NCBI RefSeq assembly: GCF_003096655.1
Contig: NZ_QEKQ01000003.1
Coordinates: 62,001-126,000, forward strand
DNA length: 64,000 nt
Source of the DNA: Tamilnaduibacter salinus
Lineage (GTDB): Bacteria; Pseudomonadota; Gammaproteobacteria; Pseudomonadales; Oleiphilaceae
Direction: 5' to 3'
Shown: positions 8,010 through 49,665 of the stretch, one piece after another
Layout of the letters: each line of letters begins with the position of its first letter
How positions within the stretch are numbered: the first letter of the stretch is position 1
Notes under the pieces: model-generated
Seen by the model: the letters and a program-made list of their open reading frames with translations, nothing else
Databases searched by the model: none
Told to the model about the DNA's origin: nothing
Program-made: the position numbers and the translations under genes

Positions 8010-9245
<1,236 letters not shown>

Positions 9246-9275
9246 GGGTCGCTCCTGTGATCACTTCGAAAGTCA

Positions 9276-9314
9276 TCAAACTATTCGATATTTCGACCGA
9301 CGTCAAACTATACT
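9276..9314. promoter_or_regulatory. Divergent control region: palindrome, direct repeat and -10
   Basis: TCGATATTTCGA (9285-9296) is a near palindrome (10 of 12). TCAAACTAT occurs twice, at 9276-9284 and 9303-9311, 27 bp apart. A TATACT (9309-9314) can serve as -10 for the ArsR gene, placing its transcript start near 9321. Together these are a plausible ArsR operator set between the two divergent genes. Confidence 0.45.
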
Positions 9315-9350
9315 AAGATGGCCGGCACACTTCCCGGAATGGAACACCGA

Positions 9351-9644
9351 ATGACGCCCCGTGGTGACGCCGACGCGCTGACCAAAGCCTTTAAGGCCCT
9401 GTCCAACCCAAACCGCCTGCGCATCTATCAGGAACTGGTCGATCAACAGATTGATCCGCTGACCAATAGCGGCTGCAAGCTTGTCGATGTGATCAACTCG
9501 TTGAAAATCGGTGCCCCAACCATTTCCCATCACGTCAAAGAGCTGGCCAATGCCGATCTGATCCGGGTTGAACGACAGGGCCGCTTTGTGACCTGCCATG
9601 TCAATGACGCCATGCGCGATGAGCTGCGCGGTTTCTTCCGGTAA
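9351..9644 (+). CDS. ArsR-family winged-helix regulator
   Basis: About 97 residues from the ATG at 9351. In-frame ATGs at 9318 and 9339 exist, but the -10 at 9309-9314 would place the first upstream of the transcript start. The winged helix is clear: KAFKALSNPNRLRIYQELV, recognition helix KIGAPTISHHVKELANADLI, wing RVERQGRFVTCHV. The metal-sensor motif CVCD is absent; only one Cys occurs near helix 3 (GCKLVDVI), so a non-metal effector is likely. Divergent from the old yellow enzyme gene and co-directional with the operon at 9874, either of which it could control. Confidence 0.88.
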   Translation: MTPRGDADALTKAFKALSNPNRLRIYQELVDQQIDPLTNSGCKLVDVINSLKIGAPTISHHVKELANADLIRVERQGRFVTCHVNDAMRDELRGFFR

Positions 9645-9873: not shown

Positions 9874-12069
9874 ATGAATCGAGGCAAACTGATTGTCATC
9901 GCCGCAATAGCGATTCTGGTCACTCTGTTCATCAGTTTTGGAGGCCAGGACGTTCTGACCCTGGACAACCTCCAGCGACACCAGGCCGATTTGGGTATCT
10001 GGATCGACAACAACCTGACGATTGCCCTTCTCGCCTTTATGGCGATCTATGTGGTTGTGACGGCGCTGTCACTGCCCGGAGCCGCTATAATGACGCTGGG
10101 TGCAGGCGCCTTTTTCGGCAACATCTACGGTGTCTTGGCGGCCTCCATCGCGTCCACCACCGGCGCGTCCGTCGCCTTTCTGGTCGCCCGTTTCCTGCTA
10201 CGCGATACGCTCAAAGGGCGCTACGGCGAGACAATTCAACGCATTGATCGGGGTATTGAAAAAGACGGCGCCTTCTATCTCGCCACGCTCCGTCTGGTAC
10301 CGGTCTTCCCGTTCTTCCTGATCAACCTGGCCATGGGCCTGACGGCCATGCCGCTGCGCACCTACGCGCTCGTGAGCTGGATCTTCATGATTCCAGGCAC
10401 CTTCGTGTACGTGAACGCGGGCACCCAGTTGGCCCAGATCCAGTCCATGGGCGACATCGTCTCTTTAGAAGTGCTGGGCGCCTTCGCGCTGCTGGGCGTG
10501 TTCCCGCTGATCGCCAAGGCGGTGATCGGCCTGATCCAGCGGCGTCGCGTCTATCGGGGGTTCGAGAAACCCCCGTCCTTCGACTACAACCTGCTGGTGA
10601 TCGGCGGCGGCTCGGCCGGTCTGGTGTCCGCCTACATTGGCGCGGCGGTCAAGGCCCGGGTGGCGCTGATTGAAAAAGACAAAATGGGCGGCGACTGCCT
10701 CAACACCGGCTGCGTTCCCTCGAAAGCCCTGATCCGCAGCGCCAAGGCGGCGGACACGATGCGCCATGCCGACCGGTACGGCCTGGAGAGCGTGCCGGTC
10801 AAAGGCCAGTTCCGCCAGATCATGGCGCGCGTGAAGCGGGTGATCGACACCGTCGAGCCCCACGACTCGCCGGAGCGCTATCGACAGCTGGGTGTGGACT
10901 GCATCTCCGGGACGGCCACCTTCGTATCCCCCTGGGAGGTTTTGGTCACCGAAAACGACGGCACGCAGCGCCGACTAACCGCCCGTAGCATCGTCGTCGC
11001 CACCGGCGGACGCCCGGCCATGCCGCCGATTGAGGGAATCGCGGACATGGCGCCACTGACTTCGGACAATCTCTGGTCTCTGCAGGAACGGCCGGAGCGC
11101 CTGCTGGTTCTCGGTGGCGGACCGATTGGCTGTGAGCTGACACAGGCTTTCACGCGACTGGGCTCACACGTGACGCAGGTGGAAATGGGGAACCGGCTGC
11201 TGGCAAAAGAAGATGAGGACGTGGCGGCCTACGTGCTGGAGCAGTTCCACGAAGACGGCGTGGATGTGCGGCTCGGACACCGTGCTGCCCGCTTCGCGAT
11301 CGAGTCCGGCGAGAAAGTGCTCTACTGCGACCGTGACGGCGCCGAGGTGCGCATTCCCTTTGATCAGGTCCTGGTCGCGGTTGGCCGGACCGGCAATACC
11401 AACGGGCTGGGCCTGGAGACACTGGGCATTGAACCTGAGCGCAATGGCACTGTCCCGGTCAACGAGGATCTCAGCATGACATACCCGAACATCTATGCCT
11501 GCGGGGATGTGGCGGGCCCCTATCAGTTCACTCATGCGGCGGCGCATCAGGCCTGGCACGCGGCCGTCAATGGCCTGTTCGGCACCTTCAAACGCTTCCG
11601 GGTGGATTACCGCATCATGCCCTGGGTGACGTTTACCGCCCCGGAAGTGGCACGCGTCGGCCTGAGTGAAGCCGAGGCAACCGAGCAGGGCGTGGCACAC
11701 GAAGTCACCCGGTATGACCTGGGCGATCTGGACCGGTCCATTGCCGAGAGCGGCGGCCCGGGGCTGATCAAGGTCCTGACCCCGCCGGGGAAGGACAAAA
11801 TCCTGGGTGCGGTGGTGGTTGGTCCGCAAGCGGGTGAAATCCTGGCCGAGTTCACGCTGGCCATGAAACACGGCCTGGGACTGAACAAGATTCTCGGCAC
11901 GATTCATCCCTATCCGACCTGGACGGAAGCGGCCAAATTCACCGCCGGACAGTGGAAGCAGGATCACGCACCGCAGGGCGTTCTCGCCCTGCTGGAAAAG
12001 CTGCACACCTGGCGCCGTGGCGGTTCCCATCCATCCACAAGTGTCGATCCCGCGGAGGGCCGGCCATGA
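9874..12069 (+). CDS. TVP38/TMEM64 (DedA-like) membrane domain fused to mercuric-reductase-like disulfide flavoprotein
   Basis: 731 residues. Residues 1-222 are a SNARE-associated/TVP38 membrane domain: helices at about 5-22, 47-80, 84-108 and 138-220, and the family signature GAGAFFGNIYG with RLVPVFPFFLINLAMG. From 236 a pyridine-nucleotide disulfide oxidoreductase follows: FAD site GGGSAG (244-249), redox pair Cys275/Cys280 in GGDCLNTGCVPS, NAD site VLGGGPIGCELTQ, second FAD motif YACGDVAG, and the active-site His678 in HPYPTWTEA. The N-terminal NmerA domain and C-terminal Cys pair of true MerA are absent, so mercury reduction is unlikely. It probably tethers disulfide/NAD(P)H chemistry to the inner membrane. 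First gene of a tight operon; its stop overlaps the next start (ATGA). Confidence 0.93.
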   Translation: MNRGKLIVIAAIAILVTLFISFGGQDVLTLDNLQRHQADLGIWIDNNLTIALLAFMAIYVVVTALSLPGAAIMTLGAGAFFGNIYGVLAASIASTTGASVAFLVARFLLRDTLKGRYGETIQRIDRGIEKDGAFYLATLRLVPVFPFFLINLAMGLTAMPLRTYALVSWIFMIPGTFVYVNAGTQLAQIQSMGDIVSLEVLGAFALLGVFPLIAKAVIGLIQRRRVYRGFEKPPSFDYNLLVIGGGSAGLVSAYIGAAVKARVALIEKDKMGGDCLNTGCVPSKALIRSAKAADTMRHADRYGLESVPVKGQFRQIMARVKRVIDTVEPHDSPERYRQLGVDCISGTATFVSPWEVLVTENDGTQRRLTARSIVVATGGRPAMPPIEGIADMAPLTSDNLWSLQERPERLLVLGGGPIGCELTQAFTRLGSHVTQVEMGNRLLAKEDEDVAAYVLEQFHEDGVDVRLGHRAARFAIESGEKVLYCDRDGAEVRIPFDQVLVAVGRTGNTNGLGLETLGIEPERNGTVPVNEDLSMTYPNIYACGDVAGPYQFTHAAAHQAWHAAVNGLFGTFKRFRVDYRIMPWVTFTAPEVARVGLSEAEATEQGVAHEVTRYDLGDLDRSIAESGGPGLIKVLTPPGKDKILGAVVVGPQAGEILAEFTLAMKHGLGLNKILGTIHPYPTWTEAAKFTAGQWKQDHAPQGVLALLEKLHTWRRGGSHPSTSVDPAEGRP

Positions 12070-12863
12070 GACGTCTGCTGTTTGCTCTGGGCATGATCGC
12101 GTCGGTCGCCGCCTCCGGGGCCTCCTTCGACCACCAGCATAAGCCCTGGGACGCGCTTGTTGAGCGGCACGTCACCTGGGTCAGCGATCACACCGCAAGC
12201 GTTGTCGACTACGCCGGCTTTCGCGAGGATCGGCCGACGCTGAACCAATACCTGGCAAGCCTGTCGCAGGTGAGCGAATCGCAGTATCAGTCCTGGGGGC
12301 CGGACCAGCAGCTGGCGTTCCTGATCAATGCCTACAACGCCTTCACGGTGAAGCTGATCCTCAGCGAGTATCCCCAGCTCGATTCCATCAAGGACCTGGG
12401 TGGGTTGTTCACCTCACCCTGGGATAAGGCGTTTTTCGAACTCCGGGGACAGCAACGCACGCTCGATGAACTGGAACACGAGATGATCCGCGTGGAGTTC
12501 AACGAGCCCCGTATCCACATGGCGGTCAATTGTGCGTCGGTCGGGTGCCCGGCGCTTGCGGACGAGGCCTATGTCGCCGGCCGGCTGGACAGCCAGCTCG
12601 ATGCCGCCGTGCGGGCTTTTCTGTCCGACGCCTCCCGTAACCGCTACGCCCCGGACACCAACACCTTTGCCGTATCGTCCATCTTTGACTGGTACGGCGA
12701 GGACTGGAACGAGGCCAGCGGATACCCCAACGGCGTCCGCGGCTTCCTCTGGCAATACCGATCGGCTTTCGAGACACCGCCGACGGACCAGTCGGACACA
12801 CTGAACGCAACGCTTCGGTTCCTGGATTACGACTGGGCACTGAACGATAACGACCAATCATGA
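12066..12863 (+). CDS. DUF547 protein, exported
   Basis: 265 residues beginning with a signal peptide (MRRLLFALGMIASVAASGAS). The DUF547 core is visible: VDYAGFREDRPTLNQYLASL, LAFLINAYNAFTVKLIL (about 86-102) and the Cys/His segment RIHMAVNCASVGCPAL (about 152-167). The conserved NAYNA and NC.S.GCP patterns suggest a cysteine-based or metal site, but no activity is established for the family. ATGA overlap with the flavoprotein gene and a 12-bp gap to the radical SAM gene show co-transcription. Predicted to act outside the cytoplasmic membrane. Confidence 0.9.
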   Translation: MRRLLFALGMIASVAASGASFDHQHKPWDALVERHVTWVSDHTASVVDYAGFREDRPTLNQYLASLSQVSESQYQSWGPDQQLAFLINAYNAFTVKLILSEYPQLDSIKDLGGLFTSPWDKAFFELRGQQRTLDELEHEMIRVEFNEPRIHMAVNCASVGCPALADEAYVAGRLDSQLDAAVRAFLSDASRNRYAPDTNTFAVSSIFDWYGEDWNEASGYPNGVRGFLWQYRSAFETPPTDQSDTLNATLRFLDYDWALNDNDQS

Positions 12864-12875
12864 TGAGGTAGGACC

Positions 12876-13838
12876 ATGACCGCTCAAGCGCAAAGCGCCG
12901 ATCGCATTCCGGTCACGGAAATCGTGGAACCCCGGGCCACCGAGAGCTGGACCCATACCCGCTCCGGCGAACCGCGAGGCTACATCGATCCGCAGCAGCT
13001 CCGGGAGTTGTGGATTCACACCGGAACCGCCTGTAACCTCTCCTGCCCGTTCTGCCTGGAGGGCTCACACCCGGGTGACGGACGGATTCCCGGCATGAAG
13101 CTGGACGATGTGCGCGGTTACCTGCACGAGGCCATGGACCTGGGCGTCGAGCAGTTTTCCTTTACCGGTGGCGAGCCTTTCGTCATCCGCGATTTCGTCA
13201 ACATTCTCGATTACGCCAGTCAGCACCGGCCCTGCTTCGTGCTGACCAACGCGACGGACCCGCTGCTCAAGCGCCGTCATCAGGTCGAGCCGCTGCTGCA
13301 CAATGCCTACCCGATCCACTTCCGGGTCAGCCTCGACTTTCCGGACGAGGCCCGGCACGACCATGACCGGGGCGCAGGCAGCTTCAACAAGGCGCTGGAA
13401 GGCATCCGCTGGCTGGTGGATCAGGGCTTCGAGGTCTCGATTGCCCGTCAGATCGACGATAATGAGGACCCGGAGGCGGTCGAGGACGCCTTCCGTGCGA
13501 TCTTCCGGGACTGGGGCATACCCGACACACTCGCGTTCACCGCCTTCCCGGACCTGGGCACGCCGGGCACCGACGACGGCAGTCCGGAAATCACCGAGTC
13601 CTGCATGGAGAAGTACCCGACCGAGCAGAGCCGGTCCCACTTCATGTGCACCTATACCCGCATGCTGGTGAAAAAGGACGACGAGGTCCGGATCTTTGCC
13701 TGCACGCTGGTGGACGACGACCCCCAGTACGATCTGGGGACATCGCTGAAGGAAAGCATGGAGGAGCGCATCATGCTGCGCCACCACCGCTGCTTTGCCT
13801 GCTACCGCTTTGGCGCCTCCTGTAGCGCGCCCTCCTGA
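12876..13838 (+). CDS. Radical SAM protein with C-terminal cysteine cluster
   Basis: 320 residues. The [4Fe-4S]/SAM site is CNLSCPFC (Cys53, Cys57, Cys60), followed by the SAM-binding FTGGEPF (Gly98-Gly99-Glu100) and a half-barrel to about 220. The C-terminal 80 residues hold six more Cys (243, 258, 276, 306, 309, 316), ending in RCFACYRFGASC. This spacing recalls SPASM/Twitch auxiliary iron-sulfur domains, though it is not a canonical match. The protein is cytoplasmic. No known named subfamily (MoaA, PqqE, NirJ, ArsS) is assigned. Good ribosome site (GATGAGGTAGG). The substrate is unknown; the operon offers no precursor peptide of obvious type. Confidence 0.92.
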   Translation: MTAQAQSADRIPVTEIVEPRATESWTHTRSGEPRGYIDPQQLRELWIHTGTACNLSCPFCLEGSHPGDGRIPGMKLDDVRGYLHEAMDLGVEQFSFTGGEPFVIRDFVNILDYASQHRPCFVLTNATDPLLKRRHQVEPLLHNAYPIHFRVSLDFPDEARHDHDRGAGSFNKALEGIRWLVDQGFEVSIARQIDDNEDPEAVEDAFRAIFRDWGIPDTLAFTAFPDLGTPGTDDGSPEITESCMEKYPTEQSRSHFMCTYTRMLVKKDDEVRIFACTLVDDDPQYDLGTSLKESMEERIMLRHHRCFACYRFGASCSAPS

Positions 13839-13864
13839 CAACGACAGAAGAAGGAAACGACATC

Positions 13865-15277
13865 ATGACCGGCGTTGAAGCCGCTTTGTTCTGGGGCTTT
13901 CTGCTCGTCTACGGCATCATCATGTACTGGCTGTCGCCGCGTAGCCGCAACGCGGCGTCGTTCTACCGGGGCGCCAGCGACAGCGGCCGCCCGGTCAGCC
14001 AGTGGTCGCTCACCGCCAGCGTGTTCATCAGCTGGATCTTTGCCAAATCGGTCACCAATGCCGCCAATCTCGGGGCGGCCTACGGCGTGACCGGCGGCCT
14101 GGCATACGCCACCTACTGGCTGTCGATCCCGGTGGCCGGGTACATCATCTACCTGATCCGGACCCAGACCGGCGCCACCAGTCTGCAGGATTTCCTGACC
14201 TCCCGGTTCGGCCGGCTGGCCGCCCTGGGCTTTGCAGCCGCTGTTCTGATCCGGCTCTATAACGAGATCTGGAGCAATACGGCAGTGGTGGGCGGTTATT
14301 TCGGCGTGGCCGGGCAGTGGGAGTATTACCTGGCCGCCATTCTCTTCACGGCCTTCACGCTCGCCTACAGCCTCAAGGGCGGGCTTCGCAGCTCAATATT
14401 CACGGACGTCATCCAGGCGATCGTGTTCGTCTTCTTCGTCGGCGCCGTGCTGTTCCTGATCATTCCGGCCAACGATACCGGCGCGCTGCTGAGCAATGGT
14501 GACATGCGACTGGATGCGGGTGCCGACCTGCTACTGGTGGCCGGGCTGCAGATCTTCAGCTACCCGTTCCACGACCCTGTACTGACCGACCGGGGCTTCG
14601 TGAACCGGGAAAAAACGATGCTCAAGAGCTTCGTGGTAGCGGGGCTGCTGGGCTTCGTCGCGGTGTTCATCTTCAGCCTGGTAGGCGTCCACGCCCGCCT
14701 GAACGGCATCGAGGCCATGGGCAATGCGCCGGCCGCCGTCGGGCAGTCCCTCGGGCTGACGGCGCTGTTTCTGATGAGCGTGGTAATGATGACCTCCGCC
14801 GGCTCGACGCTGGATTCAACGTTTACATCGTTGTCAAAATCCATTGCCGTGGATCTGCCGCAACTGGCCCGCCGGGCCAGTGACAGACTGCCGTCGATGC
14901 GACTCGGGGCGGTGGTGATGGTGCTGTTCGCCATCCTCGGCAACCTGCCGATGTTCGCCGGCACCGACATCCTCAAGGCCACAACCATCTCCGGCACCAT
15001 GGTGATGGGCCTGGCACCGGTATTCCTGTTCTACCGGTTCACCCCGTGGTCGCCGGCGAGTTTCCACCTGAGCTTCTGGAGCGGGGTGGTACTGGGCATC
15101 CTCCTGGCGGCGGGACTGATCCCGCAGAGCTGGCACATCGGTGAGGGCGCTTACGCGGCGCTGCTGGGCACCAACGCCTGGGGCTTTTTGATCTGCAGCG
15201 CCGGCTTCCTCTTGCCAATCCTCTTTCAGAAGATCGCCGGCCCGACGTCCGAATCCCGACCCGCTGAAGGGAGTTAA
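13865..15277 (+). CDS. Sodium:solute symporter family transporter
   Basis: 470 residues with about 12-13 membrane helices in the LeuT-fold SSS arrangement. Recognisable parts are WSLTASVFISWIFAKSVTNAAN (helix 2), YSLKGGLRSSIFTDVIQAIVF (the SSS signature region) and MMTSAGSTLDSTFTSLSKSIAVDL (sodium-site helix 8 with the Ser/Thr pair). It would bring a small organic solute into the cell with Na+. It sits 26 bp after the radical SAM gene and 6 bp before the next, so it is part of the same operon and may import the substrate of the pathway. Confidence 0.92.
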   Translation: MTGVEAALFWGFLLVYGIIMYWLSPRSRNAASFYRGASDSGRPVSQWSLTASVFISWIFAKSVTNAANLGAAYGVTGGLAYATYWLSIPVAGYIIYLIRTQTGATSLQDFLTSRFGRLAALGFAAAVLIRLYNEIWSNTAVVGGYFGVAGQWEYYLAAILFTAFTLAYSLKGGLRSSIFTDVIQAIVFVFFVGAVLFLIIPANDTGALLSNGDMRLDAGADLLLVAGLQIFSYPFHDPVLTDRGFVNREKTMLKSFVVAGLLGFVAVFIFSLVGVHARLNGIEAMGNAPAAVGQSLGLTALFLMSVVMMTSAGSTLDSTFTSLSKSIAVDLPQLARRASDRLPSMRLGAVVMVLFAILGNLPMFAGTDILKATTISGTMVMGLAPVFLFYRFTPWSPASFHLSFWSGVVLGILLAAGLIPQSWHIGEGAYAALLGTNAWGFLICSAGFLLPILFQKIAGPTSESRPAEGS

Positions 15278-15283
15278 CGAGTG

Positions 15284-15694
15284 ATGGATAGACTTCGGCA
15301 AACCTGGCATTCATACCGTAGCCTGCCAACCTGGGTTCAGATCTGGGTTGGTCTCATTCTGGTACCGGCCAATGCCCTGCCTTTCGCATTTCTCGACACC
15401 CCGACCGGGTACTGGGCCGCCGTCGCCGCGCTGTTCGTCGTGATGACAAACATTCCCATAATGCTCGCGTGTCGGGGAATGAGTCGACTGATGTCTCTGC
15501 CACACCTGATCGCCTGGATCCCGCTGGAAGCCTATCTTCTGGTGCGGCTGACAACGACCGGTTATGTCGATGCCACGGAAACCAGCTTGGCGGCGTTGTT
15601 GCTGATCATCAATGGCATCAGTCTCGTCTTCGATACTGTCGATAGCATACGCTGGTGTCGTGGCGAGCGGGAGGTACCGGGTTGTGACGGTTGA
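15284..15694 (+). CDS. Small four-helix membrane protein, unknown function
   Basis: About 136 residues with hydrophobic segments near 17-38, 43-66, 75-92 and 99-118; the C-terminus is charged (RWCRGEREVPGCDG). Start ATG 15284, or the GTG one codon earlier; AAGGGAG (15266-15272) is the ribosome site. No family is recognised. Its last 11 bp overlap the next gene, so it is translationally coupled. It may be an accessory subunit of the symporter encoded just upstream, which is inference from order only. Confidence 0.75.
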   Translation: MDRLRQTWHSYRSLPTWVQIWVGLILVPANALPFAFLDTPTGYWAAVAALFVVMTNIPIMLACRGMSRLMSLPHLIAWIPLEAYLLVRLTTTGYVDATETSLAALLLIINGISLVFDTVDSIRWCRGEREVPGCDG

Positions 15695-16637
15695 TTCCGG
15701 AATGCCGGGGCGAAGTTGCCCAATCGACTACCGCTACCGGCCGGAGGCGTTGTGCGCCGATCCGGTGGCGGCCGAGAGCGAAACGATGTATGTGATCGGC
15801 GGCCTCTATGGCAATACCGTTGCCCTGGCGACACTGGACCGCCGGGTCGACGGTGACATGGCGTCCGGCGCCGCCCCCCAGCTCGTTTTCAACGGCGACT
15901 TCAACTGGTTCAACATCGACCCTGACGCCTTTACGACGATCAACCACACGGTTCTCGGGCATGACGCCATCCAGGGCAATGTCGAGCACGAACTGGCGGA
16001 ACCGGACGAGGAGGCCGGCTGCGGCTGCGCCTATCCGGATTTTGTCGAGCAGGCCATGGTCGAACGCTCCAATCGCATCATCCAGCGGCTGCAGCAGACG
16101 GCCCGCGACTTTCCGGACCTGAGCGCCGCACTTGGCCGGCTGCCGCGCTACCGATGCTACCACCTCGCCGGGCAACGGATTCTTGTTCTGCATGGAGATC
16201 CGGAATCCCTCGCCGGCTGGGGGCTGGCCCACGAATCGCTGACCCGGCCCGGGCACGACGAAGTGGTGGCCAACTGGTTCCGCGCAACCGATGCCGACGT
16301 GATCGCCTGCACACACACCTGCCTGCCCGCCGTCTGGCAACGCGAGGTGGACGGGCGTCGCCGCCTGGTCATCAATAATGGCTCGGCCGGGATGGGCAAC
16401 CTCCGGCAGGATACCCGTGGACTGATCACCCGTCTGGCCACGACACCGCACACGGAAGCGCTCGTGAACGCCCGTTGCGGCGAACTCTGGGCATCACTGG
16501 TCCCACTGGACTTCGACCTGACCGACTGGCTGACGTCGTTCGACCGGTGGTGGCCCAGCGGCACTGCCGCCGCCATCTCCTACCGGGACCGGCTGGTCAA
16601 CGGCACCTCCCTCGCGCCGTCGGACCTCCTGATCTGA
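15684..16637 (+). CDS. Metallophosphoesterase-like protein with degenerate metal motifs
   Basis: About 317 residues from GTG 15684, which has GGGAGG (15670-15675) and overlaps the previous stop. The calcineurin-like order can be followed: VIGGLYGNTVAL (37-48, where D-x-H-G-N is usual), FNGDFNWF (69-76, the GD...D motif), GNVEHE (98-103, the GNHE motif), HGDPE, and CTHTCLP (the GHTH motif). Asp and His of the first motif are replaced by Gly and Tyr, and an unusual GCGCAYPDF follows motif 3. It may bind metals with other residues or bind a ligand without hydrolysing it. Last gene of the operon. The alternative start at 15612 would overlap the upstream gene by 83 bp and is less likely. Confidence 0.82.
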   Translation: MTVDSGMPGRSCPIDYRYRPEALCADPVAAESETMYVIGGLYGNTVALATLDRRVDGDMASGAAPQLVFNGDFNWFNIDPDAFTTINHTVLGHDAIQGNVEHELAEPDEEAGCGCAYPDFVEQAMVERSNRIIQRLQQTARDFPDLSAALGRLPRYRCYHLAGQRILVLHGDPESLAGWGLAHESLTRPGHDEVVANWFRATDADVIACTHTCLPAVWQREVDGRRRLVINNGSAGMGNLRQDTRGLITRLATTPHTEALVNARCGELWASLVPLDFDLTDWLTSFDRWWPSGTAAAISYRDRLVNGTSLAPSDLLI

Positions 16638-16892: not shown

Positions 16893-17414
16893 ATGACACC
16901 TGACGATTCGAATACCACCGCCATCACCCTTCGTCTGCCGACCAAGGATGATGGCTACCGGCTCAACCGGCTGGTGGACCAGTGTCCGCCGCTGGATCCC
17001 AACTCCATCTACTGCAACCTTCTGCAGTGCAGCCACTTTGCCGATACCGGCATCGCCGCGGAAATGGACGGCGACCTCGTCGGTTTCATCTCCGGCTACA
17101 TTCCGCCCCAGCAGCCCGACACCATCTTCATCTGGCAGGTGGCCGTCCATGAGAAAGGCCGGGGCCAGGGCCTGGCCAAGCGGATGCTGAAGGCCATTGC
17201 CGGTGGCGAGGCCTGCCGTGACGTGACCCACATGGAAACCACCATAACCGCTGATAACGAAGCAAGCTGGGCGCTGTTCCGCTCCTTCGCCCGGGATGTG
17301 GGTGCTGAGGTCACCGATCATGAGCACTTCGAGAAAGAGGCCCACTTCGGGGGCCATCATGACTCCGAATACCTCCTCCGCATTGGTCCGTTCACCAAGC
17401 CGGTGCACGGCTGA
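16893..17414 (+). CDS. ectA: L-2,4-diaminobutyrate N-gamma-acetyltransferase EctA
   Basis: 173 residues, the normal length. It is a GNAT enzyme with LVDQCPPLDPNSIYCNLLQCSHF (typical EctA N-terminus), the acetyl-CoA loop EKGRGQGLAKRML (about 88-100), and the family segment ETTITADNEASWALF. It acetylates diaminobutyrate to N-gamma-acetyldiaminobutyrate, the second step of ectoine synthesis. The start at 16893 follows AGGA; longer in-frame starts upstream lie inside the leader. First gene of ectA-ectB-ask, with a sigma-70 promoter about 150 bp upstream. Confidence 0.95.
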   Translation: MTPDDSNTTAITLRLPTKDDGYRLNRLVDQCPPLDPNSIYCNLLQCSHFADTGIAAEMDGDLVGFISGYIPPQQPDTIFIWQVAVHEKGRGQGLAKRMLKAIAGGEACRDVTHMETTITADNEASWALFRSFARDVGAEVTDHEHFEKEAHFGGHHDSEYLLRIGPFTKPVHG

Positions 17415-17537
17415 CGCCGCACCGGCTGGCTGACGGAAGCCCGTTTCCCGCGCTCTCGATCCCGGCTGGCCGTCATGCCGCTTGATGGGGTCGCGAAGCG
17501 CATTCACCTCGAACCTGACATGCTAAGAGGCAAGACC

Positions 17538-18809
17538 ATGGAAATCTTCAAGTCGACCGAATCCGAAGTCCGCGTTTATTCCCGCTCGTTCCCGGTCATC
17601 TTCAACCGGGCGAAAAACGCGCACCTGTTCACCGAGGACGGTACCCCTTACCTGGACTTTCTGGCCGGGGCCGGTTCGCTGAACTATGGTCACAACAACG
17701 ACATCCTGAAAAAGGCACTGCTCGAATACATCGAGAATGACGGTGTGAGCCAAGGCCTGGACATGTTCACCACCGCCAAGCATGACTTCATGGAAACCTA
17801 CCGGAAGTACATCCTTGAGCCGCGTGGGCTGGACTACAAGATGCAGTTCACCGGGCCCACCGGCACCAACTGTGTCGAAGCCGCGCTGAAGCTGGCCCGC
17901 AAGGTGAAGGGGCGGGACACCATCATCTCGTTCACCAACGGGTTCCACGGCGTGTCCCTGGGCGCGGTCGCCACCACCGGCAACAAGCACCACCGTGGCG
18001 GCGCCGGCGTGACACTGGGCGGCGTCAACTTCATGCCGTACTGCAATTATCTCGGCGAGCATGTCGACACCATCGAAGCGATGGACAAGATGCTCGTCGA
18101 CGGCTCCTCCGGCATCGAAACGCCGGCCGCGGTCATCGCCGAAGCCGTACAGGGCGAAGGCGGCCTGAACGTGGCGACCGCCGAATGGCTCCAGAAGCTG
18201 GAAAAGGTCTGCCGCAAGCACGACATGCTGCTGATCATTGACGACATCCAGGCCGGCAACGGCCGGACCGGTCAGTTCTTCAGCTTTGAGCAGGCCGGCA
18301 TCAAACCGGACATGGTCACCGTGTCCAAGTCCCTGAGCGGCTACGGCCTGCCGATGGCCCTGGTGCTGTTCCACCGTGATCTGGACGCTTGGGCACCGGG
18401 TGAACACAACGGCACCTTCCGGGGCAACAACATGGCGTTTGTCACCGCGCGGGCGGCCATCGAGACCTACTGGAAGGACGAGAGTTTTGCCAACGAGGTG
18501 AAACAGAAGTCTGAGATTCTGGGCACCAAGCTGCAGGCCATCTGCGATCAGTACGGCGCGGAGAACTTCCAGCGCAAGGGCCGTGGCATGATGCAGGGCA
18601 TCGCCTGCCGCGACGGCGAGCTGGCGGACGACATTTCGAAGCAGGCCTTCAAGAAGGGCCTGATCATCGAAACCGCCGGCCCGGACGATGAAGTGGTCAA
18701 GTGCCTGATGCCGCTGACGATCAGCGAGGAAGACCTGACCAAGGGTCTGGACCTGCTGACCGAAAGTGTGGCAGATGTGATGAAGGACGACATGAGCCAG
18801 GCTTCCTGA
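17538..18809 (+). CDS. ectB: Diaminobutyrate-2-oxoglutarate transaminase EctB
   Basis: 423 residues, a full-length class III PLP aminotransferase. Motifs: [32 protein letters not shown], the cofactor Asp region [13 protein letters not shown] (about 234-246) and the PLP lysine in [11 protein letters not shown] (about 265-275). It converts aspartate semialdehyde to L-2,4-diaminobutyrate with glutamate as donor. The ATG at 17538 is preferred over 17475 because AGAGG (17526-17530) precedes it and known EctB proteins start with M-x-I/T-F. ectC, which usually follows, is not here. Confidence 0.96.
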
Positions 18810-18816
18810 GACAATC

Positions 18817-18866
18817 GGGACCGAGGGGGCCGGCCCGCCGGGAACTCGCAAGAGCCGGCCGGTCCC
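18817..18866 (+). other. Intercistronic hairpin where ectC is normally found
   Basis: GGGACCG (18817-18823) pairs with CGGTCCC (18860-18866), and GCCGGC (18829-18834) pairs with GCCGGC (18854-18859); a 5-base bulge separates the two stems. No T-run follows. It may modulate read-through or mRNA stability between ectB and ask. Confidence 0.55.
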
Positions 18867-18917
18867 CGCGCTCACGACCGATCCCGGCATTCATGTGAAG
18901 CGACCGAAGACAGAACC

Positions 18918-20360
18918 ATGACTACTCAAGAGCACACCGTAGAGAAAATCGGCGGCACGTCCATGAGCGACTACAATGCCGTCCGTGACAATCTGGTGGT
19001 GGGCAACCGCGAGCCCGACGACCTGTACCAGCGCATCTTCGTGGTATCCGCATACGGTGGGGTCACCGACGAGCTGTTGGAACACAAGAAGACCGGTGAA
19101 CCGGGCGTCTACGCGCTGTTTGCCGATGCCGAGTCGGACTGGGCCTGGGGCGACGACCTCACCAAGCTCACCCACATGCTGACCGACATCAACCAGGAAC
19201 TGTTCGACGACCCGATGCTTCAGCAGCAGGCGGATCAGTTCATCATGGACCGTGTCGAAGGCGTGCGCGGCTGCCTGATTGATCTCCAGCGCCTGTGCTC
19301 CTACGGGCAGTTCCAGTTGGAGGAACACCTGCTGACGGTCCGCGAAATGCTGGCCGGCATCGGTGAGGCCCACAGCGCCTTCAACACCGCACTCAAGCTC
19401 CAGGCCGAGGGCATCAACGCTCGTTTCGTGGACCTGACCGGTTGGCGTGACAACGAACTACTGCCACTGGACGAGAAACTCCAGCAGGCGTTCGACAACG
19501 TCGACCTGACCCGTGAACTGCCCATCTGTACCGGCTACGCCCAGTGCCAGGAAGGCCTGATGCGGACCTTCGACCGGGGCTACAGTGAGATGACCTTCAG
19601 TCGCATCGCGGTGATCACCGAAGCGCGCGAAGCCATCATCCACAAGGAATACCACCTGAGCTCGGCAGACCCGAAGGTAGTCGGTGAGGACAAGGTAGTG
19701 CCGCTTGGCCGCACCAACTACGACGTTGCCGACCAGCTGGCAAACCTCGGCATGGAGGCGATCCATCCCAAGGCCGGCAAGGGCCTGCGCCAGAGCGACA
19801 TTCCGTTGCGCGTCAAGAACACCTTTGAACCGGAGCACACCGGCACACTGATCACCCGCGACTACGTCAGCGAGAAACCGCGCGTGGAGATCGTGGCCGG
19901 TCAGAAGGGCGTGTTCGCCATCGAGGTGTTTGACCAGGATATGCAGGGCGAGCCCGGCTCGGACCGTCGCGTGTTGGACGTTCTTTCCCGGTACAAGATG
20001 CGCTGCGTCTCCAAGGACACCAACGCCAACACCATCACCCATTACGTGGACAGTACGCTGAAACACGTCAAACGGGTGGTCCGGGCGCTGAAAGACGAGT
20101 TCCCGAACGCCGAAATCAGCACCCGGAAGGTGGCCCTGGTCTCTGCGATTGGCAGCGACATGCAGGTACCGGGCATTCTGGCGAAAACCGTCCAGGCCCT
20201 GGCGGACGAGGAAATTTCCATCCTCGCCCTGCACCAGTGCATGCGGCAGGTGGACATGCAGTTCGTCATCGACGAAGAGCATTACGAGAAAGCGATCGTC
20301 AAACTGCACGCCACACTGATTGAGCCGCACAACCACGAATACGCCATCGTTGCGGCGTAA
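18918..20360 (+). CDS. ask: Aspartate kinase of the ectoine cluster (Ask_Ect)
   Basis: 480 residues. The kinase domain starts EKIGGTSMSDYNAV (the K-x-GGTS phosphate site near residue 10) and contains FSRIAVITEAREAIIHKEYHLSSADP (aspartate site, about 231-256). Two ACT-type regulatory regions follow (about 325-400 and 404-475). It phosphorylates aspartate to feed aspartate semialdehyde into ectoine synthesis; cluster-specific kinases of this type are known to escape the feedback control of the housekeeping enzymes. Co-oriented 108 bp after ectB, probably one transcript with it. Confidence 0.95.
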   Translation: MTTQEHTVEKIGGTSMSDYNAVRDNLVVGNREPDDLYQRIFVVSAYGGVTDELLEHKKTGEPGVYALFADAESDWAWGDDLTKLTHMLTDINQELFDDPMLQQQADQFIMDRVEGVRGCLIDLQRLCSYGQFQLEEHLLTVREMLAGIGEAHSAFNTALKLQAEGINARFVDLTGWRDNELLPLDEKLQQAFDNVDLTRELPICTGYAQCQEGLMRTFDRGYSEMTFSRIAVITEAREAIIHKEYHLSSADPKVVGEDKVVPLGRTNYDVADQLANLGMEAIHPKAGKGLRQSDIPLRVKNTFEPEHTGTLITRDYVSEKPRVEIVAGQKGVFAIEVFDQDMQGEPGSDRRVLDVLSRYKMRCVSKDTNANTITHYVDSTLKHVKRVVRALKDEFPNAEISTRKVALVSAIGSDMQVPGILAKTVQALADEEISILALHQCMRQVDMQFVIDEEHYEKAIVKLHATLIEPHNHEYAIVAA

Positions 20361-48158: not shown

Positions 48159-49338
48159 GGCCTCGCCCTCCACCCCGACGGCCCGATCCGGACTCGCGTT
48201 ACTGGCACTGCTCTGGCTGGCCGGACTCTACCTGCGGGTGCCGGTGCTGGTCGCGCCGGCCCTTGCCCCGTTTGTCGCGGAGGACCTGGGCCTCTCCCAG
48301 GCACTCACCGGGGCCCTCACCACCCTTCCCGTATTCATGCTGGCCGTCGGCGCCATGCCCGGATCGCTGGCCATTTCCCGGATCGGACCGCGGGCCACCC
48401 TGGCCATTGCGCTGGTGGTGACTGCGCTGGGGTCCGCACTGCGGGGCCTTGCCCCCGAAGCCATGACGCTGATGGCAGCCAGCACCCTCATGGGCCTGGG
48501 CATCGCCGCCATGCAGCCGGCCCTGCCCGCGCTGCTTCGCGTCTGGCTGACGCCGGATCGTCTGGCACTCGGCACGGCCGTGTACATGAACGGCATGCTC
48601 ATGGGCGAATTCATCGGCGCCGGGGTGACCCTGCCGGTCATGATGCCGCTGATGGACGACAGCTGGCGCTGGACGCTCATCGGCTGGTCCGTTCCGGCGT
48701 TTCTGGTCGCCGCCGCGCTGTTCCTGCCCCGTGAACGGGTCTCGGGCGGGACCGCGGAGGCGGATCCGTGGTTACCGGACTGGAAGAACCCACTGACCTG
48801 GCGGCTCGGCGTCCTGCTGGGCGCCTCCGGTGGCCTGTTCTTCGGTACCAATGCCTACATGGGCAATGTCCTCGAGCAGCGCGGTTCACTGGACGCGTTG
48901 GACTCGGCCCTTTTCTGGCTCAACCTGGCCCAGGTCGCCTCGTCGCTGATAATGCTGAAAATGGCCCGTCAGTGGGTCGGCCGGCCGCGGGTGATTTTCC
49001 TCATGCTGATGATCGCCATCGTCACGCTGGCGCTGTTCCTGCTGACTGAGGGCCTTACCAGTATCGTTTTCGTGTTCATGATGAGTTTCACCGCCGGCAT
49101 CATGCTGATCCTGCTGGTGGCGCTGCCGCCACAGGTGGCCCGTGCGGGCGAGACCGGTCGACTCGCCGCCGGTAACTTCACCATCGGCTATACGCTGTCG
49201 TTTGGCGTGCCCATGCTGGGCGGGCTGGTAGCGGACCTGACTGGCCAGGCCAATCACGCGGTACTCGCGATGCTGATTTACGGACTGCTGGTGATGCCCA
49301 TCGCCTGGACGCTGCAGCTGCCCTCCCGGAATCACTGA
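48148..49338 (+). CDS. MFS transporter, CynX/NimT-like
   Basis: 396 residues with 12 membrane helices. Start region [42 protein letters not shown] and [27 protein letters not shown] fit the cyanate/nitroimidazole group of the major facilitator family. The ATG at 48148 overlaps the end of ectC by 11 bp, so it is translated with it. The substrate is unknown. Pairing with ectC hints at a compatible-solute or nitrogen-related role, but this is only positional. Confidence 0.9.
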
Positions 49339-49665
49339 GGGGACATCAGGCCACTGGCCGTCGCTTCCTGTATCAGCCAATGGCGAAGTCGGCGGATGGT
49401 GCTTTCATTCCGACGACTGGTCTTGTGGGCAATGTAGAAACGATCACCAGTGATCAGAACAGGTCCCGGCAACCGCACGAACGATTCGCGGTCGTCCTGA
49501 TGGCTGAGCATGTAGTCGTTGGTCAGGGCAATGCCATGGCACTGGCCTACGATGTGTTCATCAAACGGCTGGAGCCGGGCACGTCCATCTTGCAGCTCGT
49601 GTTCCTCATCGCGACAGTTGACCCTCGTGAAAAAGGGTCTGGCCTGTCGGACCCTTGCCGGGTGT
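49332..49665 (-). pseudogene. C-terminal remnant of a LysR-type regulator
   Basis: On the minus strand an open frame of about 110 codons ends at 49332 and encodes a LysR substrate-domain tail: RPFFTRVNCRDEEHELQDG, FDEHIVGQCHGIALTNDYML (the GIAL segment), VLITGDRFYIAHKTSRRNESTIRRLRHWLIQEA (typical LysR end). A TGA stands in frame at the upstream end and no start, helix-turn-helix or first half of the effector domain is found. It is therefore a truncated relic. The 85 bp to the next gene hold only its ribosome site. Confidence 0.75.

Follow-up and report, generated by a model that had tools for sequence, protein, structure and literature searches.

A four-gene set conserved in Marinobacter-type bacteria as a candidate arsenosugar-type module with a sodium symporter and an alternative radical SAM enzyme

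What might a sodium symporter, a radical S-adenosylmethionine (SAM) enzyme, a membrane-domain flavoprotein and a predicted phosphoesterase-fold protein accomplish together? The question is raised by six co-directional forward-strand genes, A to F, at positions 9874-16637 of a 64,000-nucleotide stretch of Tamilnaduibacter salinus contig NZ_QEKQ01000003.1 (the window). Gene A (9874..12069) encodes a 731-residue fusion of a VTT (TVP38) domain and a flavoprotein (Pfam VTT_dom, Pyr_redox_2 and Pyr_redox_dim), followed by B (12066..12863), a 265-residue DUF547 protein (Pfam DUF547) with an N-terminal signal-like segment, and C (12876..13838), a 320-residue radical SAM enzyme (Pfam Radical_SAM) hereafter called rSAM-C. 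The remaining genes encode a 470-residue sodium/solute symporter of the SSS family (D, 13865..15277; Pfam SSF), a small membrane protein of ~136 residues matching no Pfam family (E, 15284..15694 from ATG, with a GTG at 15281), and a 317-residue protein of predicted metallophosphoesterase fold with a sub-threshold Metallophos_2 match (F, 15684..16637 from GTG). A sequence-only reading of this DNA had described the same six genes, and re-reading the open reading frames reproduced their order and spacing exactly, with overlaps of 4 nt (A/B) and 11 nt (E/F) and gaps of 12 (B-C), 26 (C-D) and 6 nt (D-E). From comparison across genomes, we consider A, C, D and F to be, on balance, probably an arsenosugar-type module in which a methylated arsenical would be imported and then adenosylated by rSAM-C.

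To read gene neighbourhoods we used a codon-based caller whose output was compared with the existing annotation of a Roseomonas plasmid. The samples comprised 163 genomes of the window's family, 398 of its phylum, 369 of its class and 80 Marinobacter-type loci; loci carry L numbers and genomes G numbers, the window's own genome being G000. The rSAM-C gene is present in 133 of the 163 family genomes, mostly at ~80% identity, and the named relatives carrying it are nearly all Marinobacter. Across the 80 loci it is accompanied by A in 76, by D in 74 and by F in 66. The conserved unit is A-C-D-F, four genes rather than all six, since DUF547 genes appear in 3 loci and E has a single recognisable homologue in the loci (L048, 60% identity); association of the four exceeds chance, and B and E are occasional passengers in the Marinobacter-type lineage. 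DUF547 genes also lie near rSAM-C or the arsenosugar enzyme ArsS in L141, L145, L151 and L236. The set proposed in the sequence-only reading thus survives for four of its members and not for B and E, and the prospect that the genes rarely co-occur elsewhere, for which that reading had suggested a neighbourhood search, does not hold for A, C, D and F.

A link to arsenic emerges from loci in which a canonical ArsS (TIGR04167) occupies the position of rSAM-C. According to the work cited in PMC8552651 and PMC12159101, ArsS works with ArsM in arsenosugar biosynthesis. Nearest to a controlled comparison is L185 (genome G420, same order), where genes for ArsS, SSS, phosphoesterase and VTT-flavoprotein follow one another with tight or overlapping spacing; the ArsS scores 450 bits against a cut-off of 300, and its partners are 58% (to D), 43% (to F) and 56% (to A) identical to the window proteins. 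L186 reads ArsS-SSS-VTT-flavoprotein-glycosyltransferase-glycosyltransferase. Protein A shares 54-59% identity with the fusion proteins that accompany canonical ArsS in L181, L182, L185 and L186, and a VTT-flavoprotein tree places the rSAM-C-linked copy of L143 within a group of ArsS-associated copies, with local support of 0.99. Because L185, L186 and the tree show shared partners, ArsS and rSAM-C swap places beside the same genes. Moreover, none of the 398 phylum genomes holds both enzymes, where 10.8 would be expected (Fisher 1.8e-6). The best reading of rSAM-C is as a candidate alternative As-adenosylating enzyme that would stand in for ArsS.

The same phylum sample ties rSAM-C to arsenic methylation. 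Its relatives occur in 37 of the 398 genomes, in identity tiers of >70%, ~49% and ~35%, and 15 of these also hold an ArsM of the L143 type (3.4 expected; Fisher 4e-8), an overlap that spans ten families. ArsS and ArsM share 18 genomes, and 33 of the 37 ArsM genomes hold either ArsS or rSAM-C. ArsM adjoins rSAM-C or lies within one gene of it in six loci (L143, L144, L145, L151, L203 and L214), often with genes for MTA phosphorylase and TIGR04282/TIGR04283 glycosyltransferases close by. In the 49% tier, L143 combines rSAM-C with an ArsM-like methyltransferase, TIGR04282/TIGR04283 glycosyltransferases and a VTT-flavoprotein fusion, and L144 and L145 combine it with ArsM and MTA phosphorylase; the alphaproteobacterial loci L151, L203 and L214 repeat the ArsM-rSAM-C pattern. 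A Psychrobacter locus (L064) has a close rSAM-C (77%), no D, and an ArsM present. The sequence-only reading had noticed a likeness to arsenosugar loci and set it aside for want of arsM or a glycosyltransferase; with ArsM adjoining the rSAM-C family (L143-L145, L203, L214) and ArsS in the same operon (L185), that connection is restored. Separately, canonical ArsS has a gene for MTA phosphorylase as a neighbour in L182, L183, L226, L234 and L235, an arrangement that would fit adenine removal from an arsenical adenosine.

Might the substrate instead be something that resembles a methylated arsenical, such as a selenium, tellurium or phosphonate/phosphinate compound, with ArsS and rSAM-C acting as promiscuous adenosylators of a soft nucleophile? 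On the Roseomonas plasmid p546-1 (L141, 7013-18115), a relative of rSAM-C lies in a cluster that holds two radical SAM genes (one of them TrsS-like), a PhnDEC-type transporter, a homologue of the phosphoesterase F, two DUF547 genes, MauE/DoxX, flavoprotein and VTT genes. The module is here accompanied by another type of transporter, which, together with a SelD-partner-like oxidoreductase (TIGR03169) after the ArsS operon of L185, speaks for such a substrate. So does the window's own genome, in which no L143-type ArsM was found, the best NF008823 match reaching 62 bits, in the UbiE-like range. Against this stand the adjacency of ArsM in six loci, its genome-wide association, and the characterisation of ArsS in arsenosugar biosynthesis as cited in PMC8552651 and PMC12159101, and we regard a non-arsenic substrate as improbable.

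If arsenic is the substrate, D would offer a route for its entry. The protein scores 44.1 bits against Pfam SSF (gathering threshold 22.8) and is rare: a search at E <= 1e-70 finds it in 8 other genomes among the 369 of the class, 7 of which hold ArsS (6) or rSAM-C (1) (binomial 3e-5, with the base rate set roughly). Homologues directly adjoin ArsS in L185, L186 and L226, and they have the phosphoesterase as a neighbour in L185, L221, L225, L228 and L229. Among gammaproteobacterial genomes nearly all of which hold ArsS or rSAM-C, an L143-type ArsM occurs in 1 of 11 with SSS versus 8 of 12 without it (Fisher 0.009). With ArsM mostly missing from the SSS-bearing genomes, and given the company D keeps, the simplest reading is that import through D would provide the methylated arsenical for which other genomes have ArsM.

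These patterns also bear on an arsenosugar-type module that imports no arsenical, in which rSAM-C would use inorganic arsenite, or methylarsenicals from an unrecognised methyltransferase, and D would move an osmolyte or carboxylate in or out. The interchange of rSAM-C and ArsS holds whatever D carries, divergent ArsM proteins occur in a few Marinobacter genomes (G048, G053, G067 and G122), and the nearest solved relatives of D, by a weak match, are SGLT sugar transporters. However, such a role for D leaves aside the tie of SSS to genomes with ArsS or rSAM-C, its place directly beside ArsS in three loci, and the general lack of ArsM where SSS is found. We judge this version unlikely, though less so than a non-arsenic substrate.

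How well does rSAM-C itself support a module built on methylarsenical import and adenosylation? The enzyme carries a CxxxCxxC radical SAM motif (C53/C57/C60), invariant in 41 sequences, and six more invariant cysteines (243, 258, 276, 306, 309 and 316). It is in the same length class as ArsS, its profile alignment to ArsS spans the full length (E 2.4e-17), and the C-terminal cysteine spacing is alike (258, 276, 306, 309 and 316 in rSAM-C; 250, 265, 304, 307 and 315 in ArsS), a spacing general to SPASM/twitch domains and accompanied by a weak profile match. An AlphaFold model of rSAM-C was too weak (mean pLDDT, the predicted local distance difference test, of 63) and was set aside, and the fold search made from it was not relied on. 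In Marinobacter adhaerens HP15, plasmid pHP-187 carries an unannotated copy of rSAM-C that is broken in two; the symporter gene next to it is intact (L140, 9896-12758).

Several observations, beginning with this enzyme, count against the proposed module. Against the ArsS family rSAM-C scores 41 bits over residues 38-186 only, well short of the 300-bit cut-off, and the C-terminal halves alone match weakly (probability 17%). Its best NCBIfam match is to the Rv1681/MoeX-type family NF049973 (105 bits over residues 39-216), an uncharacterised family that it resembles over the N-terminal core only and far under the 380-bit cut-off. Because the C-terminal halves match weakly and the cysteine spacing is a general one, we do not call rSAM-C an ArsS, nor do we claim shared descent beyond the radical SAM core. 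Among genomes, 22 of the 37 with rSAM-C are without an L143-type ArsM, and kinship inflates the p-values given above, overstating independence. G607, the exception in the gammaproteobacterial comparison, has the SSS and phosphoesterase, with neither ArsS nor rSAM-C found. G542 holds both SSS and ArsM, and G463, G352, G441 and G204 have ArsS without SSS and without an L143-type ArsM, so the scarcity of ArsM alongside SSS is a tendency only. Finally, the TIGR04283/TIGR04282 glycosyltransferase pair is weak evidence, being found in 56 of 61 family genomes irrespective of ArsM. These two families were rejected as arsenosugar markers as too widespread, and because of their near-universal presence the 'arsenosugar' label they bear looks too narrow. 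The window's genome has such a pair on contig C11 (48790-50287; L170 8790-10287), next to a glutaredoxin-like gene, with the TIGR04283 member at 48927-49583 scoring 270 bits (cut-off 182).

Protein A joins its VTT (TVP38) membrane domain to a flavin adenine dinucleotide disulfide reductase of the MerA/dihydrolipoyl dehydrogenase kind. It shares with mercuric reductase MerA the flavin disulfide reductase fold and a redox CxxxxC motif, here CLNTGC (C275/C280), and the mercuric reductase structure 5x1y is its best PDB match. Unlike MerA, however, it has the VTT domain fused, lacks the C-terminal cysteine pair (the last cysteine is residue 543 of 731) and the N-terminal heavy-metal domain, and scores 362 bits against a TIGR02053 cut-off of 454. 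It falls among relatives of MerA, dihydrolipoyl dehydrogenase and glutathione reductase, reaching no NCBIfam equivalog cut-off shown. Because of this family, A is proposed to reduce pentavalent methylarsenicals and so yield the trivalent state required for chemistry of the ArsS type.

F is matched weakly by Pfam Metallophos_2 (18 bits; cut-off 27). Its AlphaFold2 model (pLDDT 90.2) is closest by Foldseek in the PDB to the asymmetric Ap4A hydrolase SapH (3qfn, E 7e-11), and we are confident in predicting a calcineurin-like metallophosphoesterase fold. The alignment of homologues begins from the same GTG start at 15684. Metal motif I, DxH, is missing: 12 of 12 aligned homologues have GGLYGN or GG.Y.N instead, and the replacement is invariant in 30 Marinobacter-type sequences. 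The family also has an invariant CGC motif (C113-G114-C115). Since this motif is invariant and metal ligands are lost, the sequences suggest that F binds a metalloid at a putative thiolate site, and they speak against its hydrolysing phosphate esters in the ordinary way with the usual pair of metals.

The four proteins can be assembled into a tentative route. D would import a methylated arsenical together with Na+, dimethylarsinate being the likeliest cargo, and at the membrane A would reduce it to a trivalent, thiol-bound form. rSAM-C would then cleave SAM and place the 5'-deoxyadenosyl group on arsenic, as ArsS does in known arsenosugar biosynthesis, a step proposed because the two enzymes interchange. 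Glycosyltransferases encoded elsewhere, such as the pair on contig C11, would finish the product, and F would belong to the module, possibly handling the metalloid through its CGC motif. The genetic context supports the assignment to arsenic; from it we infer an arsenic substrate in Marinobacter and every one of these reactions. Import by the symporter, modification by the radical SAM enzyme and thiol/disulfide redox by the flavoprotein, as outlined from the DNA alone, still provide the best frame.

Could the four genes instead be syntenic baggage, with unrelated functions, that happens to sit beside the ectoine genes? In the window, ectA, ectB and an aspartokinase-like gene (16893-20360) directly follow the operon, and in nearly all Marinobacter loci the set likewise borders on ectABC. 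The rSAM-C-to-SSS gap is also loose, ranging from -18 to 667 nt; an Rfam scan of seven loci with this variable gap gave only a tRNA and no riboswitch or non-coding RNA. This explanation is contradicted by the same partners occurring away from ectABC in other families, in L158, L185, L186, L221, L225, L228 and L229, and we consider it very improbable. The adjacency is absent in L158 and outside Marinobacter, and a functional link to ectoine synthesis was rejected, as the gene set recurs elsewhere without ectABC. In both L081 (13438-17295) and L159, genes for a sulfate/thiosulfate-type ABC transporter separate the phosphoesterase gene from ectA, and the local symporter, which shares only 37% identity with D, looks like a replacement.

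Upstream of A, an ArsR/SmtB-type regulator (9318..9644, forward strand; NF033788, 57.7 bits against a cut-off of 55) possibly regulates the operon. No such regulator was found in the Marinobacter loci, and the idea of a conserved regulator was rejected. An old-yellow-enzyme-type flavoenzyme gene (8010-9245, reverse strand) is divergent from it, and between the two lies an imperfect 20-nt direct repeat (9265-9311) that could be an operator.

The type of pathway, arsenosugar biosynthesis, is already known. The module resembles it in the VTT-flavoprotein, in the SSS and phosphoesterase of L185, and in the company of ArsM in other genomes. In contrast, rSAM-C forms a separate family under the ArsS cut-off, the window's genome is without ArsM, and a Na+ symporter stands in the methyltransferase's place. 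Arsinothricin biosynthesis (arsQML) is likewise a small arsenic operon with a radical SAM enzyme and a transporter, but its ArsL is a noncanonical single-cluster enzyme of 428 residues, its transporter ArsQ is an exporter resembling GntP, and ArsM lies inside the operon (PMC8552651). In the literature searched, with most subscription papers outside it, we found no description of the rSAM-C family, of an importer in place of a methyltransferase, or of the near-universal presence in Marinobacter, and no paper on DUF547 with a radical SAM enzyme plus TVP38 or a metallophosphoesterase. The possibility that the set belongs to a named pathway is thus borne out for its partners but not for its arrangement or its radical SAM family.

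Bacterial oxo-arsenosugars have been reported from several cyanobacteria (PMC12159101), and PMC12608789 calls the uptake mechanisms of small organoarsenicals largely unknown. Tentatively, and with less assurance than for the module itself, we suggest that Marinobacter and its relatives might scavenge methylated arsenic from seawater through a dedicated Na+ symporter and turn it into adenosylated arsenicals or arsenosugars with an independently recruited second radical SAM family, with no methylation of their own and with F as a new metalloid-handling protein. If so, common heterotrophic marine bacteria would also make adenosylated arsenicals, from dissolved methylated rather than inorganic arsenic. 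The module would then add a second family of radical SAM enzymes that form C-As bonds and a candidate importer for methylated arsenicals, and would offer a testable explanation for the origin of the arsenosugars in marine food webs.

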